From Chlorobaculum tepidum TLS (GTDB lineage: Bacteria > Bacteroidota > Chlorobiia > Chlorobiales > Chlorobiaceae): a DNA stretch of 64,000 nt. The stretch is from assembly GCF_000006985.1 (NCBI RefSeq), contig NC_002932.3, forward strand, positions 1,833,292 to 1,897,291, given 5' to 3'. Under the pieces are notes generated by a model. The model saw only the letters and a list, made by a program, of their open reading frames with translations. It did not search any database and was not told the origin of the DNA. Below, one piece after another: positions 35,642 through 46,417 of this stretch (position 1 is its first letter; every line of letters begins with the position of its first letter). Made by a program: the position numbers and the translations under genes.

Positions 35642-38227
35642 ATGCGTCACTACCCCAAATCCCTGAAAAATGCGGATGCGCCCGTTGAGCATCCGCCGCT
35701 GCCGCTCGAACGCTGCCTCGCGAAATCACGGAAAATCGACGCCAGCCGCTCCGTTGCCGGGCGAACGGTGCTCGACCACTGCCGCATCGCGGGCGAGGTG
35801 GCACGGGAGCTGATCGCCCGCTCGCCCGCCTTCCTGCGCGAGTCGTTTTTTCCGGACGGCTCGGCGCTCGTCGCCGCCAGCCACGACATCGGCAAGGTCA
35901 GCCCGACCTTCCAGAAAAAAATCTACACGGCGATCGGGAACGCCGATCCGACGATTCTCGATGTGTTGAACGATGTCGATTCGGAGATCGAAAAAAATTG
36001 GGGCGGCCACGCGGGCGTCAGTCAGTGCGCTCTCGAAGCACTGGAGGCAGGCAAAGACATCGCCGCGATTGCCGGTTGCCACCACGGCTACGCGCCGAAA
36101 CTCGCGGGCAAAACCGCTGATGCGGAGGCGTTCGGCGGCGCGGCGTGGCAACGTCAGCGGGCGCGGCTGCTGGAGCGGCTCGCGGAGGCGACAGGCGAGC
36201 GGTTCCCGAAAATCCGCAATTTGCTGCACGCCCGCGTGCTGGCCGGGCTGACCTCCGTGGCGGACTGGATCGGCTCCGGCGCGACGTTCGACGATCCCGG
36301 CGAGGCGTGGCAAAGCTGCATCGCCGACGCCGTCGATGCAGCCGGATTCACGCCGCCGCGCCTCAGGCCGGGGCTGTCGTTCCGGGAGATTTTCGGGTTC
36401 GAGGCGCGCCCGATCCAGCGCAGCCTGATAGAAAAGGCCTGTCGCCCCGGCGCGTACATCCTCGAAGCGCCGATGGGCATCGGCAAAACCGAGGCCGCGC
36501 TCTACGCCGCCTACGCCCTCGTATCGGCTGGCAAGGCTCGCGGCATCTACTTCGCCTTGCCGACGCAGCTCACCTCCAACCGCATCCACGAGCGGGTCGA
36601 GCGCTTTCTCGACAAAGTGCTCGAAGCGGACTCGCCCCACCGAAACGCGCTGCTCGTGCACAGCAACGCTGGGCTGCAAAAGTTCGAGTTCGGCGCGGAT
36701 GCCGCCCCCGGCTGCTCGTGGTTCAGCGCATCGAAGCGCGGGCTGCTCGCCCCCTTCGCCGTCGGCACCATCGACCAGGCGCTGATGGCCTCGATGAACG
36801 TCAAACACGGCTTCGTCCGCGCCTTCGGCTTGGCGGGCAAAGTGGTCATTCTCGACGAAGTGCACAGCTACGACGCCTACACTGGCACCATTCTCGACCG
36901 GCTGGTGCGCGAGTTGCGGCAGCTGCATTGCACGGTCATCATCCTCAGCGCCACCCTCACCGGAGAGCGCCGAAGCGCCCTGCTCGGCGCGGCCCGAAGC
37001 GCGGAGGCGGCCTACCCGCTCATCTCCGCCCTGCCCGCCGAGGCGCGGGAACCGGTCGAAATCGCGCCGGAAACGATGCCCGGAAACCGTGTCGCCATCC
37101 ACCAGACGCTCGACATCGACGAAGCAATGGATGAAGCGCTCAACCGGGCGGATTCCGGCCAGCAGGTGCTTTGGATCGAAAACACCGTCACCGAAGCGCA
37201 GGAGGCGTTCAAACTCCTCGCCGCCCGGTCGAGCGGCATGGCGATCGAGTGCGGCCTGCTCCATTCGCGCTTCATCCACTGCGACCGCGAGGCGCTCGAA
37301 GAGAAGTGGGTGACGCGCTACGGTGCGGATGGTGCGGCGGCGCGGCGCGAGCGGGGGCGGATTCTCGTTGGCACGCAGGTGCTCGAACAGTCGCTCGACA
37401 TCGACGCCGATTTCCTCGTCACGCGCCTCTGCCCCACCGACATGCTTTTGCAGCGCATCGGACGCTTGTGGCGGCACAGCTTCCACCAGCGCCCTGCCGG
37501 AGCGAGGTGCGAGGCGTGGATCGTCAGCGCACAGTTCGAGGCCGCCGAGCAGAATCCCGGCGAGGCGTTCGGCAAAAGCGCGAAAGTCTATAGCCCATAC
37601 GTGCTCTTGCGAACGCTTCAGGCGTGGAGCGGCGTGGAAGCGCTTTCGCTGCCGGGCGACATTCGCGACCTGCTCGAACGCACCTACGAAGCGAGGCCGG
37701 AGAGCGAGGCGATGGCAAAACACAAAGCCGACCTCCAGCGGCGCAGGGAGATACTCGAAAGCTTCGCGCTCCAGGGGGTCTCGTTCGGCCTCGACGCAAG
37801 ACCCGACACCAATGTCGCCACCCGTTACAGCGACATCGACACCGTCGAGCTGCTCCTGCTGCAATCGGTCAGCCACAACCATGCGGCGCACGAAACCACG
37901 GTGACGCTGCTCGACGGCCAACAGCTCACCCTGCCGCACGACTTCGCCGCCGGGCGGAAGCGCGAGCAGCGGCAGCTCGCCGCCCGCCTCGCCACGCAAA
38001 CCCTCAAGGTGGCCGAGTACGCCGCGCCCGCCGACCCCGGACGCAACACGCTCACGTGGCTCAAGCCCTACTTCTACCTCGGCGATCCGTCGAAGAGCGA
38101 AAGCCTTTTGCGCGTCGCCATCGTGGGCGAGGGTGGCCTGTTGAGGTTGCCCGGTGGCGGCGCGGCGGCGGAGAAATACGAACTGAGTTACAACCCACGA
38201 CTGGGCTACCAGTACAAAAAACGATAA
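35642..38227 (+). CDS. cas3: CRISPR helicase-nuclease Cas3 (type I-E)
   Basis: Effector nuclease-helicase recruited by Cascade to degrade target DNA; 861 aa. The N-terminal HD nuclease has His-Asp at about 80 (SHDIGK) and an upstream His (DHCRIAGEV). The SF2 helicase has Walker A GIGKTEA near 280, the DEVH box LDEVHSYDAY near 404, SAT motif LSATL and motif VI QRIGRLWRH. All key motifs look intact, with a Cas3 C-terminal domain after about 700. It is first of the eight-gene cas operon; cse1 starts 17 bp after its stop. Confidence 0.95.
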   Translation: MRHYPKSLKNADAPVEHPPLPLERCLAKSRKIDASRSVAGRTVLDHCRIAGEVARELIARSPAFLRESFFPDGSALVAASHDIGKVSPTFQKKIYTAIGNADPTILDVLNDVDSEIEKNWGGHAGVSQCALEALEAGKDIAAIAGCHHGYAPKLAGKTADAEAFGGAAWQRQRARLLERLAEATGERFPKIRNLLHARVLAGLTSVADWIGSGATFDDPGEAWQSCIADAVDAAGFTPPRLRPGLSFREIFGFEARPIQRSLIEKACRPGAYILEAPMGIGKTEAALYAAYALVSAGKARGIYFALPTQLTSNRIHERVERFLDKVLEADSPHRNALLVHSNAGLQKFEFGADAAPGCSWFSASKRGLLAPFAVGTIDQALMASMNVKHGFVRAFGLAGKVVILDEVHSYDAYTGTILDRLVRELRQLHCTVIILSATLTGERRSALLGAARSAEAAYPLISALPAEAREPVEIAPETMPGNRVAIHQTLDIDEAMDEALNRADSGQQVLWIENTVTEAQEAFKLLAARSSGMAIECGLLHSRFIHCDREALEEKWVTRYGADGAAARRERGRILVGTQVLEQSLDIDADFLVTRLCPTDMLLQRIGRLWRHSFHQRPAGARCEAWIVSAQFEAAEQNPGEAFGKSAKVYSPYVLLRTLQAWSGVEALSLPGDIRDLLERTYEARPESEAMAKHKADLQRRREILESFALQGVSFGLDARPDTNVATRYSDIDTVELLLLQSVSHNHAAHETTVTLLDGQQLTLPHDFAAGRKREQRQLAARLATQTLKVAEYAAPADPGRNTLTWLKPYFYLGDPSKSESLLRVAIVGEGGLLRLPGGGAAAEKYELSYNPRLGYQYKKR

Positions 38228-38244
38228 CCCTCATCGACACAGCC

Positions 38245-39837
38245 ATGCACAACCGTTTCAACCTGATCGACGAGCCGTGGATTCCGGCCATCGGCAAAGG
38301 CCTCGTGAGTCTCGCCGACATCTTCAGCGATCCACGCATTCCCGCGCTCGGCGGCAACCCCGTGCAGAAGATCGCCCTCACCAAGCTCCTGCTCGCCATC
38401 GGCCAGGCCGCCTGCACGCCGGAAACCACCGAGGCGCTCGAACAGCTCGACGCCGAAACTTTCCGCCGCGCCTGCCGCGCCTACCTCGAAAAATGGCGCG
38501 ACCGCTTCTGGCTCTTCGGCGACAAGCCGTTTTTGCAGATGCCCGCAATTCTTGACTGGATGGAATCTCAACGCGCTGCCGGAATTTTATCTGAAACAGA
38601 GAATGCGAAACAAATTGGACCCGGATTTTATCCAAGTCTTCCGTCTGAAAATGATTCCATTCTGAGTCAGTTCCAGACACTTAAGGCTCAAACAGATGCC
38701 GAAAAAGCGTTATTCATTGTTTCGGTCATGAACTTCGCTTTTGGCGGAACGCAGATTAACAAGAACATTTATCCATCAGAAGAAAAAGTCAAAGGCAAAG
38801 GAAAACCGGCAAAACCCGGACCGAGTTTAGGTCGAAATGGTTATTTGCACACCTTTCTTTTCGGTTCGACGATAATTGATACGCTCATCATGAATCTTCT
38901 TTCGCAGGAAGAGATCGACAACTTGCCATTCTGGGAAAAAGGAATTGGAACTCCACCTTGGGAAAACATGCCTGTCAGCAGAGAATGCGACGCCGCACTA
39001 TCTCTCAAAAAATCTTACATGGGGACTCTTGTATCGCTTTCACGATTCGTACTCTTGCACGACGACGGGATTTATTATATCGACGGCCTCCCTTATCCAA
39101 GTCATCAAGAGGGCTGGTTAGAACCAAGTATGACGATCGATAATCAGCAAAATCCGCCGAAAGCCATACTGGTCAATCCAGAGAAGCGCCCGTGGCGCGA
39201 GTTAGTATCAATCCTTGCTGTTTTCGATAGCAACAAAAACAACAAGTTTGTTTGTCTGTTCATAAAATACGGTTTGAGCAGATGGCCAAAACGATACAAT
39301 AAACCTGGAGATAAAATCGGCGTTTGGTCGGGAGGACTTCAGGTGTCATTTCAAACTGGCGAGCAATATGCAAAAGCTACTAATGATTTTGTAGAATCAT
39401 CGGTAGAACTCGACCCCGACATGTGGAACAACTTATGGTATGACAAATTCTTCGGAGAAATAAGCATTCTTGAAATAATGGCAAATAAAGTCAAAAATGG
39501 AGTCATAAATTATTATGACTCATTTGAACCAAAAAAAGAAAAAAAGCCCAAAGAAAGAGCTTCAACAATAATGGGGAAAAAAGCTGTAGAATTATTCTGG
39601 CAGCTCTGCGAACGGCGCTTCCCGGAGCTGGTCGATGCCTGCGGCGAGCCAGACAAGCTTCCCGCCATCCACGAGGCGATAAACTTGCTCGCCTTGCAGT
39701 CTTACGACGCCTACTGCCCGAAGGAGACGGCACGGCAGATCGATGCGTGGGCGGAGTGCCAAAAAGACCTTAAAAAATTCATCCGCGAATTGATGGAGGC
39801 AGATCGACGCGTGGGCGGAGTGCCGTCCGAATTTTGA
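38245..39837 (+). CDS. cse1: Cascade large subunit Cse1 (Cas8e)
   Basis: PAM-recognising large subunit of type I-E Cascade, 530 aa from the ATG at 38245 (MHNRFNLIDEPWIPA, the family's start). The N-terminal domain includes the LFGDKPFLQMP block. Later are MNFAFGG and LGRNGYLHTFLFG, and a C-terminal four-helix bundle. Codons from about 38555 to 39595 are distinctly AT-rich, while both ends have the GC-rich usage of the other cas genes. Near the 3' end a 26-bp stretch (39735-39760) recurs at 39799-39824 in another frame, so the last residues may be altered. It is followed by cse2 after 36 bp. Confidence 0.93.
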   Translation: MHNRFNLIDEPWIPAIGKGLVSLADIFSDPRIPALGGNPVQKIALTKLLLAIGQAACTPETTEALEQLDAETFRRACRAYLEKWRDRFWLFGDKPFLQMPAILDWMESQRAAGILSETENAKQIGPGFYPSLPSENDSILSQFQTLKAQTDAEKALFIVSVMNFAFGGTQINKNIYPSEEKVKGKGKPAKPGPSLGRNGYLHTFLFGSTIIDTLIMNLLSQEEIDNLPFWEKGIGTPPWENMPVSRECDAALSLKKSYMGTLVSLSRFVLLHDDGIYYIDGLPYPSHQEGWLEPSMTIDNQQNPPKAILVNPEKRPWRELVSILAVFDSNKNNKFVCLFIKYGLSRWPKRYNKPGDKIGVWSGGLQVSFQTGEQYAKATNDFVESSVELDPDMWNNLWYDKFFGEISILEIMANKVKNGVINYYDSFEPKKEKKPKERASTIMGKKAVELFWQLCERRFPELVDACGEPDKLPAIHEAINLLALQSYDAYCPKETARQIDAWAECQKDLKKFIRELMEADRRVGGVPSEF

Positions 39838-39873: not shown

Positions 39874-40410
39874 ATGGACAACGAAAAAGAAAAGAAAACC
39901 GGTAGGCAGAAACAGTTCGTGGAGTTCGTGATCGGCCTGTGCCAGCGCGACAAGGGGGCCGCCGCCGCGCTTCGCCGAGCCGATAATCCGGCGACCGAGT
40001 ACCAGAGCTGGGAGTACCTGGCGGGCTTCAACATCGACCTCGAAAAACCGTTCGAGCGCATTCCTTACGCCGCCATCGCCGCAGCCATCGCGCGGGCCAA
40101 AGCGGAGCGCAACGGCTCAGCGGGCATCGGCAAGGCTATCGCCTTCTGCTACGAAGATCGGAGCAAGAGCGATCAGGCCAAAGCGCGGCTCCGGCGGCTG
40201 CTTGCCTGCAATTCGGTTGAGGAGGCGTGCCGGATTCTGCGCCCGCTCTTCAGCCTTATCGACTCGAAAGCGGCGGTAACGCTCGACTACGCCGAGTTGC
40301 TCAGCCAGCTCCTCTGGTTCAATGACGACAGCAACCGCATCAAAACGGATTGGGCGACCGACTTTTACCGCCACGCCGCCAAAACCGAAAACGAGGAGGT
40401 GAAGGCATGA
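39874..40410 (+). CDS. cse2: Cascade small subunit Cse2 (Cas11e)
   Basis: Small helical Cascade subunit, 178 aa, which stabilises the R-loop. It starts with a basic segment (MDNEKEKKTGRQKQFVEFVIGLCQRDKGAAAALRRA), the Cse2 family hallmark. The stop overlaps the cas6e start (ATGA), so translation is coupled. Confidence 0.92.
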   Translation: MDNEKEKKTGRQKQFVEFVIGLCQRDKGAAAALRRADNPATEYQSWEYLAGFNIDLEKPFERIPYAAIAAAIARAKAERNGSAGIGKAIAFCYEDRSKSDQAKARLRRLLACNSVEEACRILRPLFSLIDSKAAVTLDYAELLSQLLWFNDDSNRIKTDWATDFYRHAAKTENEEVKA

Positions 40411-41036
40411 TTGCCACGATGCTCACCCTCAGCCGCAAGGACGTCAAGGCCTTGCGCATTACGGACAGCTATTCGCTGCACCGCGTCATTTACAGCCTCT
40501 TCGAGGACGTGCGCTCGGAAGCCGAAAAGCGGTCGAGCGTGCCAAGCGGCTTTCTGTTCGCCGACAAGGGGGGCGACGCCAAAGGGCGCAAAATCCTCAT
40601 CCTCTCCGACAGGCCGCCGCTGCAACCGGCGCACGGCGAACTGGTTTCCAGACCTGTGCCGGAAGAGTTCCTCCAGCACCGCTTCTACAAGTTCGAGGTA
40701 ACGCTCAACCCCACGCGCAAGGAGAACAAAAGCGGCAAGCGCGTGCCCATCAAAACCCGCGAGGAGGTGGCGGCGTGGTTCGGCGGCAAGTCGCAGACGT
40801 CGTGGGGATTCAGCGTCGATCCGGCGCGGCTCGACGTGCGGATGCTGCCGGTGATGCAGTTCAGCAAGCAGGGCGACCGTACCGTCACCCACGGAGCGGC
40901 CCGCGTGTCGGGAATGCTGCGGGTCGAAAACCGCGACCTCTTCATCGAAAGCTTCAACAAAGGCATTGGCCGGGGCCGCGCGTTCGGCTTCGGGCTGTTG
41001 CAGATCGAACCTCTCAAAGACAACTCAAACCACTAA
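40407..41036 (+). CDS. cas6e: CRISPR RNA endonuclease Cas6e (Cse3)
   Basis: Processes the crRNA precursor at the repeat hairpin; 209 aa from the ATG at 40407, preceded by GAGGAGGTGAAGGC. The N-terminal DSYSLHRVIYSLF carries the candidate catalytic His25, in the position of E. coli Cas6e His20. The C-terminal glycine-rich loop GIGRGRAFGFGLLQI contacts RNA. It sits between cse2 and cas7, whereas in the E. coli order it follows cas5. Confidence 0.93.
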   Translation: MIATMLTLSRKDVKALRITDSYSLHRVIYSLFEDVRSEAEKRSSVPSGFLFADKGGDAKGRKILILSDRPPLQPAHGELVSRPVPEEFLQHRFYKFEVTLNPTRKENKSGKRVPIKTREEVAAWFGGKSQTSWGFSVDPARLDVRMLPVMQFSKQGDRTVTHGAARVSGMLRVENRDLFIESFNKGIGRGRAFGFGLLQIEPLKDNSNH

Positions 41037-41048
41037 AACCATACCACC

Positions 41049-42095
41049 ATGAACAACAATCCATTCAAGGGCCAGCGCATCGAATTCCACATCCTCCAGT
41101 CCTTTCCGGTTACCTGCCTGAACCGTGACGACGTTGGCGCTCCGAAAACGGCGATGGTCGGCGGCTCCACCCGCGCCCGCGTCAGCTCGCAGTGCTGGAA
41201 GCGGCAAGTGCGCCTCGAAATGCACGAACTCGGCGTGAGGCTCGGCATCCGCAGCAAAAAGGTCGCCGATTACGTTGCCAAAGCCTGCGTCGCACTCGGC
41301 GCGGATGATGAGGCTGCTAAGGCGTGTGGTGAGAAGATTGCCGCCGCCTTCAGCAACGACACGCTCTTCTTTTTCAGCGAAACAGAGGCCAGCGCCTACG
41401 CGCAGTACGCCGCCGAAAAGGAGTTCGACGCCGCGAAGTTCAACGACAAGGAGCTGGCGAAGCTCTCGAAGAAAACGCTCGACCCGGCCAAAGACGGCCT
41501 CGACATCGCGCTGTTCGGGCGGATGGTGGCGCAGGCTGCCGAGCTGAACGTCGAGGCTGCCGCGTCGTTCGCTCATGCCATTTCGACCCACAAGGTGAGC
41601 AACGAGGTCGAGTTCTTCACGGCGCTCGACGACCTTGCCGAAGAGCCGGGTTCGGCGCACATGGGCAGCCTTGAGTTCAACTCCGCCACCTACTACCGCT
41701 ACGTCAGCCTCGACCTCGGCCAGCTTTCGGCGAACCTCGGCGGCGCGGACATTGCCGACGCGGTGGAGGCGTTCACCAAAGCGCTCTTCGTGGCCGTGCC
41801 GAGCGCCCGGCAAACAACGCAGTCGGGCGCGTCGCCGTGGGAGTTCGCGAAAATCTATATCCGCAAGGGCCAGCGCCTTCAGGTTCCGTTCGAGACTCCG
41901 GTCAAAGCCGAAAGAGGCGGCGGATTCCTCCAGCCGAGCATCAAGGCGCTCACCGACTATCTCACCAAAAAGGAGCAGCAGGCCGGCTCGCTCTTCGGCA
42001 AGGAAAAGGAGTTCACCTTCGGCGGCGAGGACGAAACGTTCAGCATCGACACGCTGGTCAGCGAAATCCGCAACTTTATCGAAGCGAAATCATGA
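41049..42095 (+). CDS. cas7: Cascade backbone subunit Cas7 (Cse4)
   Basis: RRM-like backbone protein, 348 aa, six copies of which coat the crRNA. Family start IEFHILQSFPVTCLNRDDVGAPKTA and the motif RARVSSQCWKRQVR. It starts 12 bp after cas6e and its stop overlaps the cas5 start (ATGA). Confidence 0.95.
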   Translation: MNNNPFKGQRIEFHILQSFPVTCLNRDDVGAPKTAMVGGSTRARVSSQCWKRQVRLEMHELGVRLGIRSKKVADYVAKACVALGADDEAAKACGEKIAAAFSNDTLFFFSETEASAYAQYAAEKEFDAAKFNDKELAKLSKKTLDPAKDGLDIALFGRMVAQAAELNVEAAASFAHAISTHKVSNEVEFFTALDDLAEEPGSAHMGSLEFNSATYYRYVSLDLGQLSANLGGADIADAVEAFTKALFVAVPSARQTTQSGASPWEFAKIYIRKGQRLQVPFETPVKAERGGGFLQPSIKALTDYLTKKEQQAGSLFGKEKEFTFGGEDETFSIDTLVSEIRNFIEAKS

Positions 42096-42808
42096 GCAAT
42101 CCATTCATCCTGTTATGGCTCGAAGCGCCCCTCCAGTCGTGGGGCGCTGACTCGCGCTTCGGACGGCGCGACACGCTCGATTTCCCCACGAAGTCGGGCT
42201 TGCTCGGGCTGCTCTGCTGCGCCCTCGGCGCGGGCGGCGAACAGCGCGAACTACTCGACGAAATGGCCGAACTCCGCCAGACGGTGCTCGCGTTCCAGCG
42301 CGAACGCGGCGAGCGACCGCCGCTGCTCCGCGACTTCCAGATGGTCGGCAGCGGCTACAACGAGAAAGACAAGTGGGAAACTTTGCTGATTCCGAAAAAG
42401 CGCGATGGCGGCGGCGCGGTGGGCGGCGGCACGAAGATGACCTACCGTTACTATTTGCAGGAGGCCGCGTTCGCCGCCGCATTGGAGGTTCCGGCGGCAC
42501 GGGCCGGGGAGTTCGCCGAAGCGCTTAAGGCTCCCGTGTGGGACATCTACTTCGGGCGGAAGTGCTGCGCGCCGACCGATATGGTGTTCCGGGGCGAATT
42601 CGACTCGGAGGTGGCAGCGCTCGAAGCGGCCTCTTCGATCGCCAAAGAGAAGCGGCTCCGGGAGGCGTTCCGCGTTCGCGACTACGCGCCGGGCGACGAA
42701 GGCGAGGCGGAGGTGGTGGCACTCAACGACGTGCCGGTGCGGTTCGGCCCAAAGAAAAAATATCGCCAGCGGCGAGTAACCATAATCCACCACAACGATG
42801 AAGAGTAA
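42092..42808 (+). CDS. cas5: Cascade subunit Cas5e
   Basis: Caps the 5' handle of the crRNA; 238 aa from the ATG at 42092. Begins with LLWLEAPLQSWGADSRF, then RDTLDFPTKSGLLGLLCCALG, which are the Cas5e signatures. A Lys/Arg-rich C-terminal part ends KKKYRQRRVTIIHHNDEE. Overlaps cas7 by 4 bases and cas1 by 11. Confidence 0.95.
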   Translation: MSNPFILLWLEAPLQSWGADSRFGRRDTLDFPTKSGLLGLLCCALGAGGEQRELLDEMAELRQTVLAFQRERGERPPLLRDFQMVGSGYNEKDKWETLLIPKKRDGGGAVGGGTKMTYRYYLQEAAFAAALEVPAARAGEFAEALKAPVWDIYFGRKCCAPTDMVFRGEFDSEVAALEAASSIAKEKRLREAFRVRDYAPGDEGEAEVVALNDVPVRFGPKKKYRQRRVTIIHHNDEE

Positions 42809-43688
42809 CACACTCGGCGACGAAGGAAATCCGGCCCGGCTCTTGATAAAAGTGACGCGGGAGACCCTTCCGCAGGTCAAGGAAAAGTATCCGTTTCTGT
42901 ATCTTGAGAAGGGCCGGATAGAGATTGACGACAGCAGCATCAAGTGGATCGACTGCGACTGCAACGTCGTGCGTCTGCCGGTGGCCATGCTGAACTGTAT
43001 TTTGCTCGGCCCCGGCACGACGGTAACGCACGAGGCCGTAAAAGTAATGGCCGCCGCCAATTGCGGCATCTGCTGGGTGGGCGACGACAGCCTGATGTTT
43101 TACGCGAGCGGGCAGACGCCGACCAGCAATACGCGGAACATGACGCATCAGATGAAGCTCGCGGCCAATCCGGCAAAAGCGCTTGAAGTGGCGCGGCGGC
43201 TCTTCGCCTATCGCTTTCCGGACGCGAATCTGGAGAACAAGACGCTGCCGCAAATGATGGGCATGGAGGGTTTGCGGGTGCGGAAGCTTTACGAAGAGAT
43301 GGCCGTGAAGTACAAGGTCGGCTGGAAGGGGCGGCGGTTCGAGCCGGGAAAATTCGAAATGAGCGACACGACGAACAAGATTCTGACGGCGTCGAACGCG
43401 GCGCTGTACAGCATCATTCTGTCGGCGGTGCACAGCATGGGTTACTCGCCGCACATCGGGTTCATTCACTCCGGCAGTCCGCTACCGTTCATTTACGACC
43501 TGGCCGATCTGTACAAGCAGCAGGTCTCGATCGACCTGGCCTTTTCGCTGACCGCCGACATGGCCGGGTATTACGACCGGCACAAGATCGCCTCGGAGTT
43601 CCGGAAGCGCGTCATCGAAATCGACCTGCTTGGCAAGATCGGGCCGGACATCGAAACCATTCTGGGGAAAAAACAATGCTCGTCGTAG
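42798..43688 (+). CDS. cas1: CRISPR integrase Cas1 (type I-E)
   Basis: Metal-dependent integrase for spacer acquisition, 296 aa. Type I-E blocks are visible: GPGTTVTHEAVKVMAAANCGICWVG, the metal-site Glu in MEGLRVRKLY, then NAALYSIILSAVHSMGYSPHIGFIHSGSPLPFIYDLADLYK containing the His and Asp ligands. Overlaps cas5 and cas2. Confidence 0.96.
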   Translation: MKSNTLGDEGNPARLLIKVTRETLPQVKEKYPFLYLEKGRIEIDDSSIKWIDCDCNVVRLPVAMLNCILLGPGTTVTHEAVKVMAAANCGICWVGDDSLMFYASGQTPTSNTRNMTHQMKLAANPAKALEVARRLFAYRFPDANLENKTLPQMMGMEGLRVRKLYEEMAVKYKVGWKGRRFEPGKFEMSDTTNKILTASNAALYSIILSAVHSMGYSPHIGFIHSGSPLPFIYDLADLYKQQVSIDLAFSLTADMAGYYDRHKIASEFRKRVIEIDLLGKIGPDIETILGKKQCSS

Positions 43689-44011
43689 TCGCCAATGATC
43701 TGCCCCCGGCCGTGCGTGGCCGGATGAAGCTCTGGTTCATCGAACCACGGGCGAACGTTTTCGTCTCTGGTGTGCGGGACAGCCTGGCCAGAAAGGTGGT
43801 GGATTATCTGCACCAGCACTGCCCGCCGAAAAGCGGCCTGATGATTTTCAACAGCTCGAACACGTGCCCCGGCTACGAAATTTTCGGTTTGGGCGACACG
43901 CGCAAAGAGATCACGGAAATATCGGGCCTGCCGCTCGTGATCGAAAAATCCGCCGCCTCGCCACCAGAAAACCAAAACAGATTGACGCCAGAGGCCCCGA
44001 AAGTCCAGTAA
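43676..44011 (+). CDS. cas2: CRISPR adaptation protein Cas2e with C-terminal extension
   Basis: Scaffold subunit of the Cas1-Cas2 integrase, 111 aa, against about 94-97 aa for typical Cas2e. The ferredoxin-like core starts MLVVVANDLPPAVRGRMKLWFIEPRANVFV and ends around LPLVIEKS. The last 18 residues are Pro/Glu/Asn-rich and unlikely to be folded. The start overlaps cas1 by 13 bases, and the stop is only 8 bp before the first CRISPR repeat. The tail codons therefore occupy the position where the leader should be. Confidence 0.93.
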   Translation: MLVVVANDLPPAVRGRMKLWFIEPRANVFVSGVRDSLARKVVDYLHQHCPPKSGLMIFNSSNTCPGYEIFGLGDTRKEITEISGLPLVIEKSAASPPENQNRLTPEAPKVQ

Positions 44012-44019
44012 AACCCAGT

Positions 44020-45159
44020 GTCTTCCCCACGCCCGTGGGGGTGTTTCCACCGAAACCGCGCAATTGCTGTACGCATGGGACGTCTTCCCCACGCCCGTGG
44101 GGGTGTTTCTTTCTACCCATTACCAACACAAGGGGCGCGCGTGTCTTCCCCACGCCCGTGGGGGTGTTTCCAACAACAACCAAAAAACTCAAAACTTACG
44201 GAGTCCGTCTTCCCCACGCCCGTGGGGGTGTTTCCATGCGACGCCTTTTGTCTAACTTGACAACGATGTCTTCCCCACGCCCGTGGGGGTGTTTCTCACG
44301 CGATTGCGGCGTTCGCGCTGATCAAAAAGGTCTTCCCCACGCCCGTGGGGGTGTTTCCCATGTTATCATTTCAGAAACAAGAAAAGAATGAGTCTTCCCC
44401 ACGCCCGTGGGGGTGTTTCTGGGATAACCGTATAGGAAGCGTAGCAGTGCAGGGTCTTCCCCACGCCCGTGGGGGTGTTTCCCTTGATTGCCCGCGCCGT
44501 TATGGGCGGCGGGCGTCTTCCCCACGCCCGTGGGGGTGTTTCCAAGGAACAATTTGAAATTCTCACGCAAGGAACGTCTTCCCCACGCCCGTGGGGGTGT
44601 TTCCACTACAATATCATAAAGCAAGGCGTCTCCGCATGGTCTTCCCCACGCCCGTGGGGGTGTTTCCTCTTGGGGGATCGAGGGCCTTCAATTTGCCGGG
44701 TCTTCCCCACGCCCGTGGGGGTGTTTCTCACGCGCTGGCGGCAAAGGCGTTAATTGAACGCTGTCTTCCCCACGCCCGTGGGGGTGTTTCTAAAAAAGTG
44801 CTTGCTTTTTGGAAAAAATGAATGTCTTCCCCACGCCCGTGGGGGTGTTTCTGGTGTATAGCATCTAATCCAGTAATCTTTTTAGTCTTCCCCACGCCCG
44901 TGGGGGTGTTTCTGTCAGGACATATCACTTAGAGCTTATGAGCGAGTCTTCCCCACGCCCGTGGGGGTGTTTCCAAGTATATGGCTCACTTCCCGGATAA
45001 TTACGGGTCTTCCCCACGCCCGTGGGGGTGTTTCCAAAAACCGGAGACCAACCATGAAACAGGAACAGGTCTTCCCCACGCCCGTGGGGGTGTTTCCGCC
45101 TCGGGTCGCCGGGGCGTTGTCTTTGACCCGTGTCTTCCCCACGCCCGTGGGGGTGTTTC
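44020..45159 (+). CRISPR. Type I-E CRISPR array, 19 repeats and 18 spacers
   Basis: Nineteen repeats of 28 bp, each starting GTCTTCCCCACGC and ending CCGTGGGGGTGTTTC (these two strings overlap in the centre), all identical by eye including the last. The palindrome CCCCACG/CGTGGGG gives the Cas6e hairpin. Repeat starts: 44020, 44082, 44143, 44207, 44268, 44330, 44392, 44454, 44515, 44576, 44639, 44700, 44763, 44824, 44885, 44946, 45007, 45069 and 45132. Spacer lengths: nine of 33, five of 34, three of 35 and one of 36. Every spacer begins with C or T. Orientation follows the cas genes. There is no separate leader. Confidence 0.98.
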
Positions 45160-45194
45160 CTTGTCCAGCCCGGATGGGGTTGCTTCGTTTGCGT

Positions 45195-45226
45195 AAAAAA
45201 AGGCGACCTCGCAAATCGAAATCGCC
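45195..45226 (-). terminator. Terminator after the DUF4438 gene
   Basis: Minus-strand stem GGCGA/TCGCC followed by seven T, between the DUF4438 stop and the convergent CRISPR array. Confidence 0.7.
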
Positions 45227-45256
45227 CCTGCAAAAACAGCAAACCCTGCCGCGCAA

Positions 45257-46141
45257 TCACAACCTTGTGCCTATTCCAAGCAGGTCGGCGATGTTGGCTT
45301 TGGGGTCTATGACCGGGCGGATGCCGCGAGTGGCGCAGGTCATAATGGTGGTAACGCCGGGACCGTGGCCCGCTTCGCGGCAGTCGCTGTGCACCACGAC
45401 GCCGATGGTGACGGCCCCCTTGCGGTAGGCTCGCCCGTAGCGATTGTCCTGGTCGAGCAGCGCCACGAAGTCGCCGAAGCGGATACGGTCGAGGCCAAAC
45501 TCTTCGACCGCACCAGGATCGCTGGTCACGATGTCGTAATCGCCCTTGGCCACGTGCGCCGAACCGATACCGGAACCCATGCAGTACGCCGGGACCAGTG
45601 TCGTTACCGGCACTTCGAGCACACCGTCCTCGGCAATATTGATCTTCATTTTCGCCAGCAGCGCCGGGTCGAGGTTGAAGAGCGAAACATCCGGAAAGTC
45701 GGTCAGCTTGAGTCCCTGCCCTTTCGAGCGCACCATGATGGTGTCGCCATAGGCCATCTTCTCCTTCACTTCGCGCGGAAAATCGACAATGATGTGCTCC
45801 GAACCGCCGTGATGGCCGATCACCACCCCGCTCTCGCCCTTCGCCTCGCCGGAGACGATGGTGGCCGTGTTGCCCACGCAGCTCAGCATCTGCACGGTAA
45901 CGTTGGGGTGCTCGAAAGGTTTGTGCGTATCGGCAGTGCAGCTCACGCCTGGCTCGATGTGGTCACCCTCCCAGCCAAACGCCGGGTCGCCGACCTGAAG
46001 ATTGAGGGTGATGCCGCCAATGGAGGGCAAAATGAAGGGCGTGCCCTGATGATCAACCTCCCATGTGCCACGGGTACGTGGCTGGCCGGGCTGGCATTGA
46101 AGCAGGATTTCAACAAGGCGGTTTTCGTTGGTTGCAAGCAT
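45257..46141 (-). CDS. DUF4438 family protein
   Basis: 294 aa from the ATG at 46141 ([13 protein letters not shown]); a frame-extending ATG 11 codons earlier is possible and neither has a clear ribosome site. It resembles DUF4438 proteins: [51 protein letters not shown] and [16 protein letters not shown]. The family has structures but no established activity, and its fold has been compared to metal-dependent hydrolases. No signal peptide. Convergent with the CRISPR array; no functional link is implied. Confidence 0.85.
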
Positions 46142-46417
46142 GGTAAAGTCAATGGTTTGATTGTGAAATAACACTACCCGAGAAGTACCCGGCGCGACGT
46201 AACGCTGTGACTACTCAACAATGAAAAGGTTCGATACAAACATCGCTATCCATGAAAAAATCCTCTTAAAAAAAGAACTTTTTCGTCAGCTTCGGGCAAA
46301 TTCAGCGTATCAAAGAAGTAACTCATTTTCCTTTCCGGGCTTTTTTTATAACATTGTGATCTTTTAGGTCTCTGCGAGGTGGTTCCCCTTTGTTTTTCAT
46401 GAATTTACACAGTCATC

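Follow-up and report, generated by a model that had tools for sequence, protein, structure and literature searches.

Probable overlap of the CRISPR leader with the 3' end of cas2 in a type I-E locus of Chlorobaculum tepidum

We propose that the type I-E CRISPR-Cas locus of Chlorobaculum tepidum TLS probably has a leader that overlaps the 3' end of cas2, so that part of the leader would also encode a tail of the Cas2 protein, predicted to be disordered. This reading rests on comparison of related sequences. The window that we analysed is the whole stretch of 64,000 nucleotides from positions 1,833,292 to 1,897,291 of contig NC_002932.3; positions in the text and in Table 1 count from its first letter, and negative positions count back from the first repeat.

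The operon runs cas3 ... cse2-cas6e-cas7e-cas5e-cas1-cas2 and is followed by the CRISPR array. In a profile search, Cas1e (TIGR03638) and Cas2e (TIGR01873) scored above cut-off, as did the Cascade components Cse2, Cas7e, Cas5e, and Cas6e (TIGR02548, TIGR01869, TIGR01868, and TIGR01907, respectively) and the Cas3 helicase-nuclease at 35642-38224 (TIGR01587 and TIGR01596); the ORF ending at 39837 is a candidate for Cse1. The order of cse2-cas6e-cas7e-cas5e at 39874-42808 is unlike the order in E. coli, where cas6e comes after cas5e. The end of cas1 overlaps the start of cas2 by 13 bp. This cas2 gene is presumably CT1978, the namesake of TIGR01873, and a Cas2 of this type is carried by 16 of the 98 genomes of the order. 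Residues 1-89 of the protein can be aligned with E. coli Cas2 structures; beyond them lies an extra tail, as the earlier note had claimed, that brings the protein to 111 aa, compared to mostly 93-95 aa in relatives with an intergenic leader. The same note had put only 8 bp between cas2 and the array, and this holds: the TAA stop codon at 44009-44011 is followed by AACCCAGT (44012-44019) and then by repeat 1 at 44020. Six other Chlorobaculum species have the identical arrangement of a 111-aa Cas2, TAA, AACCCAGT, and repeat 1, which excludes an assembly accident.

Table 1 Features of the cas2-array junction and its surroundings.
Feature	Position	Strand	Basis
cas1 (Cas1e)	42798..43688	+	TIGR03638 354.8 bits, cut-off 215.6
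cas2 (Cas2e, CT1978 type), 111 aa plus TAA	43676..44011	+	TIGR01873 135.2 bits, cut-off 33.15, residues 1-87; PF09707
Cas2 C-terminal tail, residues 92-111	43949..44008	+	codon-position test; pLDDT; missing where relatives have an intergenic leader
Putative core of the leader (about -40 to -1), made up of the final ~32 bp of the cas2 ORF with its stop codon and of the 8-bp gap	43980..44019	+	low change counts
TTGACGCCAGA, invariant in 7 Chlorobaculum, within the cas2 ORF	43982..43992	+	alignment
Motif CCAGTAAAACCCAGT of the leader, with CCAGT twice at an interval of 10 bp and the cas2 stop inside	44005..44019	+	kept at -15..-1 by Chlorobiaceae in either of two frames
Type I-E CRISPR array, 19 identical 28-nt repeats, 18 spacers of 33-36 nt	44020..45159	+	repeat search
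Inverted repeat with T7 after it on the - strand; probably terminates the convergent gene 45257-46174	~45202..45226	-	read by eye

The array is the only one in the 2,154,946-bp genome with the repeat GTCTTCCCCACGCCCGTGGGGGTGTTTC. Its unit, a 28-nt repeat plus a C/T base at a spacing of 61-64, is in line with the 28-29 nt repeats and ~61-bp period of type I-E systems. The spacers are irregular in length, as if the ruler of the integrase were loose: lengths other than 33 nt occur in 9 of 18, while other Chlorobiaceae arrays have them in 39 of 372 spacers (Fisher p = 6e-5). No protospacers for the 18 spacers were found among the phages searched, which leaves the first spacer base as the sole guide to the PAM, and no spacers were common to different species among the Chlorobiaceae arrays compared. 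With E. coli type I-E systems the locus shares Cas1e, Cas2e, and the effector genes, the 61-bp period, repeats of the I-E kind, a putative leader zone of ~60 bp on the cas2 side, and a PAM-type base at the leader-proximal end of the spacers. In contrast to the intergenic leader of ~60 bp in E. coli, however, the gap here is only 8 bp and the leader zone would overlap the cas2 ORF and its stop codon.

We compared 86 I-E loci in which an array could be detected close to cas2. The distance from the cas2 ATG to repeat 1 has a median of 337 bp and lies between 332 and 348 bp in 33 of the 38 loci of the CT1978-type Cas2e clade, although these loci are not phylogenetically independent; in the same 38 loci Cas2 is anywhere between 93 and 111 aa long. 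A longer Cas2 goes with a smaller gap (slope -2.5 nt per residue, r = -0.95, n = 35), a slope that follows arithmetically from the constant total; it is the constancy itself that is the finding. In contrast, in the 47 more distant I-E loci the gap is unrelated to Cas2 length (slope 0.4, r = 0.05). The fact that the distance stays constant while Cas2 length varies suggests that the stop codon floats within a leader zone of fixed length. Gammaproteobacterial loci of the CT1978 type (e.g. L036-L043) belong to the same Cas2e clade and repeat family and have an ATG-to-repeat distance of 334-335 bp, with a 95-aa Cas2 followed by a 46-47 bp intergenic leader that contains TTTAACAATTTGTTGGT and, upstream of it, a CACTATATATTGTG-like motif; in the Chlorobiaceae, CCAGTAAAAYCCAGT stands in place of these two elements. 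With a zone of fixed length, the Chlorobaculum tail would fill the place of the gammaproteobacterial intergenic leader (95 aa plus 47 bp).

Two loci outside this clade, L150 and L151 of another I-E clade, have a gap of 14-18 bp behind an ordinary Cas2 of 90-91 aa and share a sequence ending in GAAGT before repeat 1. They are an independent case, in which tight packing has arisen without a tail. In an Elusimicrobiota locus with a 100-aa Cas2, about two degenerate repeats lie 30-40 bp past cas2 and form a short, perhaps decaying, array. Arrays away from cas2 (L059, L070, L071, L075, and L083) were considered as cases of a leader alone and were set aside, because they had no upstream motif or seemed to be remnants or to continue from another contig.

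The best evidence for uptake of leader DNA into the cas2 frame comes from two relatives. The semi-palindromic, CACTATATATTGTG-like upstream motif lies at -46..-33 and is intergenic in gammaproteobacterial and other loci. In L045 (Desulfobacterales, Cas2 of 102 aa) and L046 (Spirochaetales, Cas2 of 104 aa), the motif occupies the same position but falls in the cas2 reading frame, where its palindromic versions, CACAAGATCTTGTG and CACTACATGTAGTG, are translated within Cas2; both score above every background window. As in Chlorobaculum, then, part of the leader zone appears to be translated as a Cas2 tail at a fixed total spacing, but unlike Chlorobaculum these two loci keep the upstream motif of the gammaproteobacterial leader. 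Chlorobaculum has a weak match to the wider-clade motif (P about 0.05, shifted by one base), and no match was found in Chlorobium.

What the Chlorobiaceae conserve is a block at -15..-1, CCAGTAAAAYCCAGT, with two copies of CCAGT one helical turn apart. In C. tepidum this block is made up of 7 bases of cas2, including the stop, and the 8 bases of the gap, and CCAGT-N5-CCAGT occurs once in the window, at 44005-44019. CCAGTAAAAYCCAGT supplies the cas2 stop codon as CCAG-TAA in Chlorobaculum and in two further loci (L020 and L023). In five Chlorobium, cas2 ends earlier, at a TGA, and CCAGTAAAAYCCAGT is intergenic, in a different frame relative to cas2; another Chlorobium (L024) has no CCAGT motif and L016 has half of it. 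Conservation of CCAGTAAAAYCCAGT across frames, whether coding or not, points to selection on the DNA. There are no changes at -15..-1 among the seven Chlorobaculum species, where 5.6-8 are expected (p 0.004-0.0003).

Along the tail the changes among the seven species, which are closely related and make all of these tests rest on few changes, number 7 in the 33 nt of -41..-9 and 14 in the 30 nt of -71..-42. Compared to the third-position rate of cas1, changes are significantly low at -41..-9 (p = 0.004) and at -15..-1 (p = 0.0003); compared to the slower third-position rate of the cas2 core, the reduction is marginal at -41..-9 (p = 0.08) and clear at -15..-1 (p = 0.004). The constraint on the DNA is limited to about the last 40 bp before repeat 1. 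We infer that the DNA at -40..-1 acts as the functional leader, and the part of the tail at -71..-42, about half of it, looks like neutral, unconstrained filler.

A leader at the distal end, beyond 45160, with the array pointing towards cas2, would account for the locus differently, since adjacency to cas2 cannot by itself fix polarity; moreover, in four Chlorobaculum (L087, L088, L091, and L092) a similar sequence, a trailer of the TTGCAANANGTGGACAGTGTGGACG kind that is absent from this genome, stands just past the last repeat. We consider such a leader extremely unlikely, because four lines of evidence agree in supporting the cas2-facing end. In I-E systems the base after each 28-nt repeat is the PAM-derived position; among 390 spacers from 15 Chlorobiaceae arrays, 378 have C or T as this first base, at the end that faces cas2, and the second base is unbiased and the last only mildly biased. 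Degenerate last repeats sit at the distal end of the array in L087 and L090. The 60-nt upstream flanks are 93% identical among the seven Chlorobaculum species, a figure that partly reflects coding, compared to 31% for the downstream flanks; the flank at the far end, where the earlier note saw no leader-like sequence, is unconserved. Finally, the repeats are oriented with the cas operon, also as that note had it and as in all related loci, including those in which an ordinary intergenic leader lies on the side of cas2. The convergent terminator that it placed at the far end is probably an inverted repeat at ~45202-45226 with T7 on the - strand that we read by eye; the terminator scan does not report it, its loop being too long for the scan settings.

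It is also conceivable that the tail is a functional element of the protein, contacting Cas1 or DNA for example, and that its overlap with the leader is a coincidence. The tail stays open and Pro-rich in all Chlorobaculum, and there is a precedent in E. coli Cas2, where a short C-terminal part past the shared fold contacts Cas1. The pattern of substitution, however, makes this improbable. Among seven Chlorobaculum, third positions account for only 10 of the 21 substitutions in the tail, whereas in cas1 and the core of cas2 they account for 189 of 251 (Fisher p = 0.0097). At first and second codon positions the tail has a rate of 0.275 changes per site, 3.4 times the 0.082 of cas1. The sequence of the tail is not conserved between genera, and AlphaFold2 gives a pLDDT of <50 at residues 94-109, where the alignment is shallow, a prediction that hints at disorder. 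We see no sign in these sequences of constraint at the protein level.

An alternative that deserves more weight, although we still think it somewhat less probable than its converse, is that the leader comprises the last 10-15 bp only (CCAGTAAAACCCAGT, mostly gap and stop codon) and that the remaining tail is neutral sequence left by the loss of an earlier stop and unrelated to leader function. Strong conservation across genera is limited to -15..-1, the rate of change in the first half of the tail looks neutral, and about 10 bp of leader is enough in type II-A systems, but E. coli I-E requires 60 bp (PMC5815122). A leader this short would also leave unexplained the constant ATG-to-repeat spacing, the in-frame motif at -46..-33 in L045 and L046, and the measure of DNA constraint that extends to about -40. 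The weighing modifies two claims of the earlier note. That the leader must lie within cas2 is borne out insofar as the 3' end of cas2 appears to occupy the place of the leader, but the most strongly conserved block straddles the border between the coding sequence and the gap. That the tail may be recruited leader DNA is supported by the constant spacing, the lack of protein-level constraint, the motif kept across frames, and the in-frame motif in relatives, but this does not extend to the neutral-looking stretch at -71..-42.

If leader and cas2 overlap as we propose, Cas1-Cas2 would dock at the junction of repeat 1 (44020) and a short upstream leader of about 40-60 bp, the most conserved part of which would be CCAGTAAAACCCAGT, containing the cas2 stop. 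Recognition would most likely involve the boundary between leader and repeat with CCAGTAAAACCCAGT and, with less certainty, reach into cas2 as far as about -40. Within the Cas2e clade the distance from start codon to repeat is nearly fixed, and the stop codon falls at any point from about 3 to 20 codons beyond the end of the folded core; the Chlorobaculum stop lies almost at the repeat, and leader DNA would thus be translated into the disordered tail.

Two features that are part of the comparison with E. coli concern transcription and bending of the leader. A consensus scan found no sigma70-like promoter in 43400-45500, although other promoters are possible; TTGACG at 43982 was rejected as a -35 box because it has no acceptable -10. 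Nor did the terminator scan find one between cas2 and the array. With neither element found, it is plausible that the array is transcribed by read-through from the cas operon; the literature searched held nothing useful on crRNA or transcription starts in C. tepidum. The genome encodes two proteins of the HU/IHF family, both below the IHF cut-offs, so that no canonical IHF subunit scores above cut-off. The bending mechanism of E. coli may therefore not apply, and bending of this leader by canonical IHF is doubtful.

We found no paper describing an overlap of leader and cas2 in a search limited to open-licence literature, and leader finders limited to intergenic DNA will miss such leaders. There is an outside chance, which we rate as quite unlikely, that the overlap is regulatory, with docking of the integrase on the translated 3' end of its own gene, or fresh integration at 44020, disturbing translation termination or read-through from the cas operon; if true, adaptation would be coupled to how both the cas genes and the array are expressed. 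For I-E systems that lack canonical IHF, the locus gives exact leader boundaries that can be tested. As a natural series in which the leader zone is translated to varying extents, these loci may allow the DNA needs of the integrase to be separated from the protein needs of Cas2.
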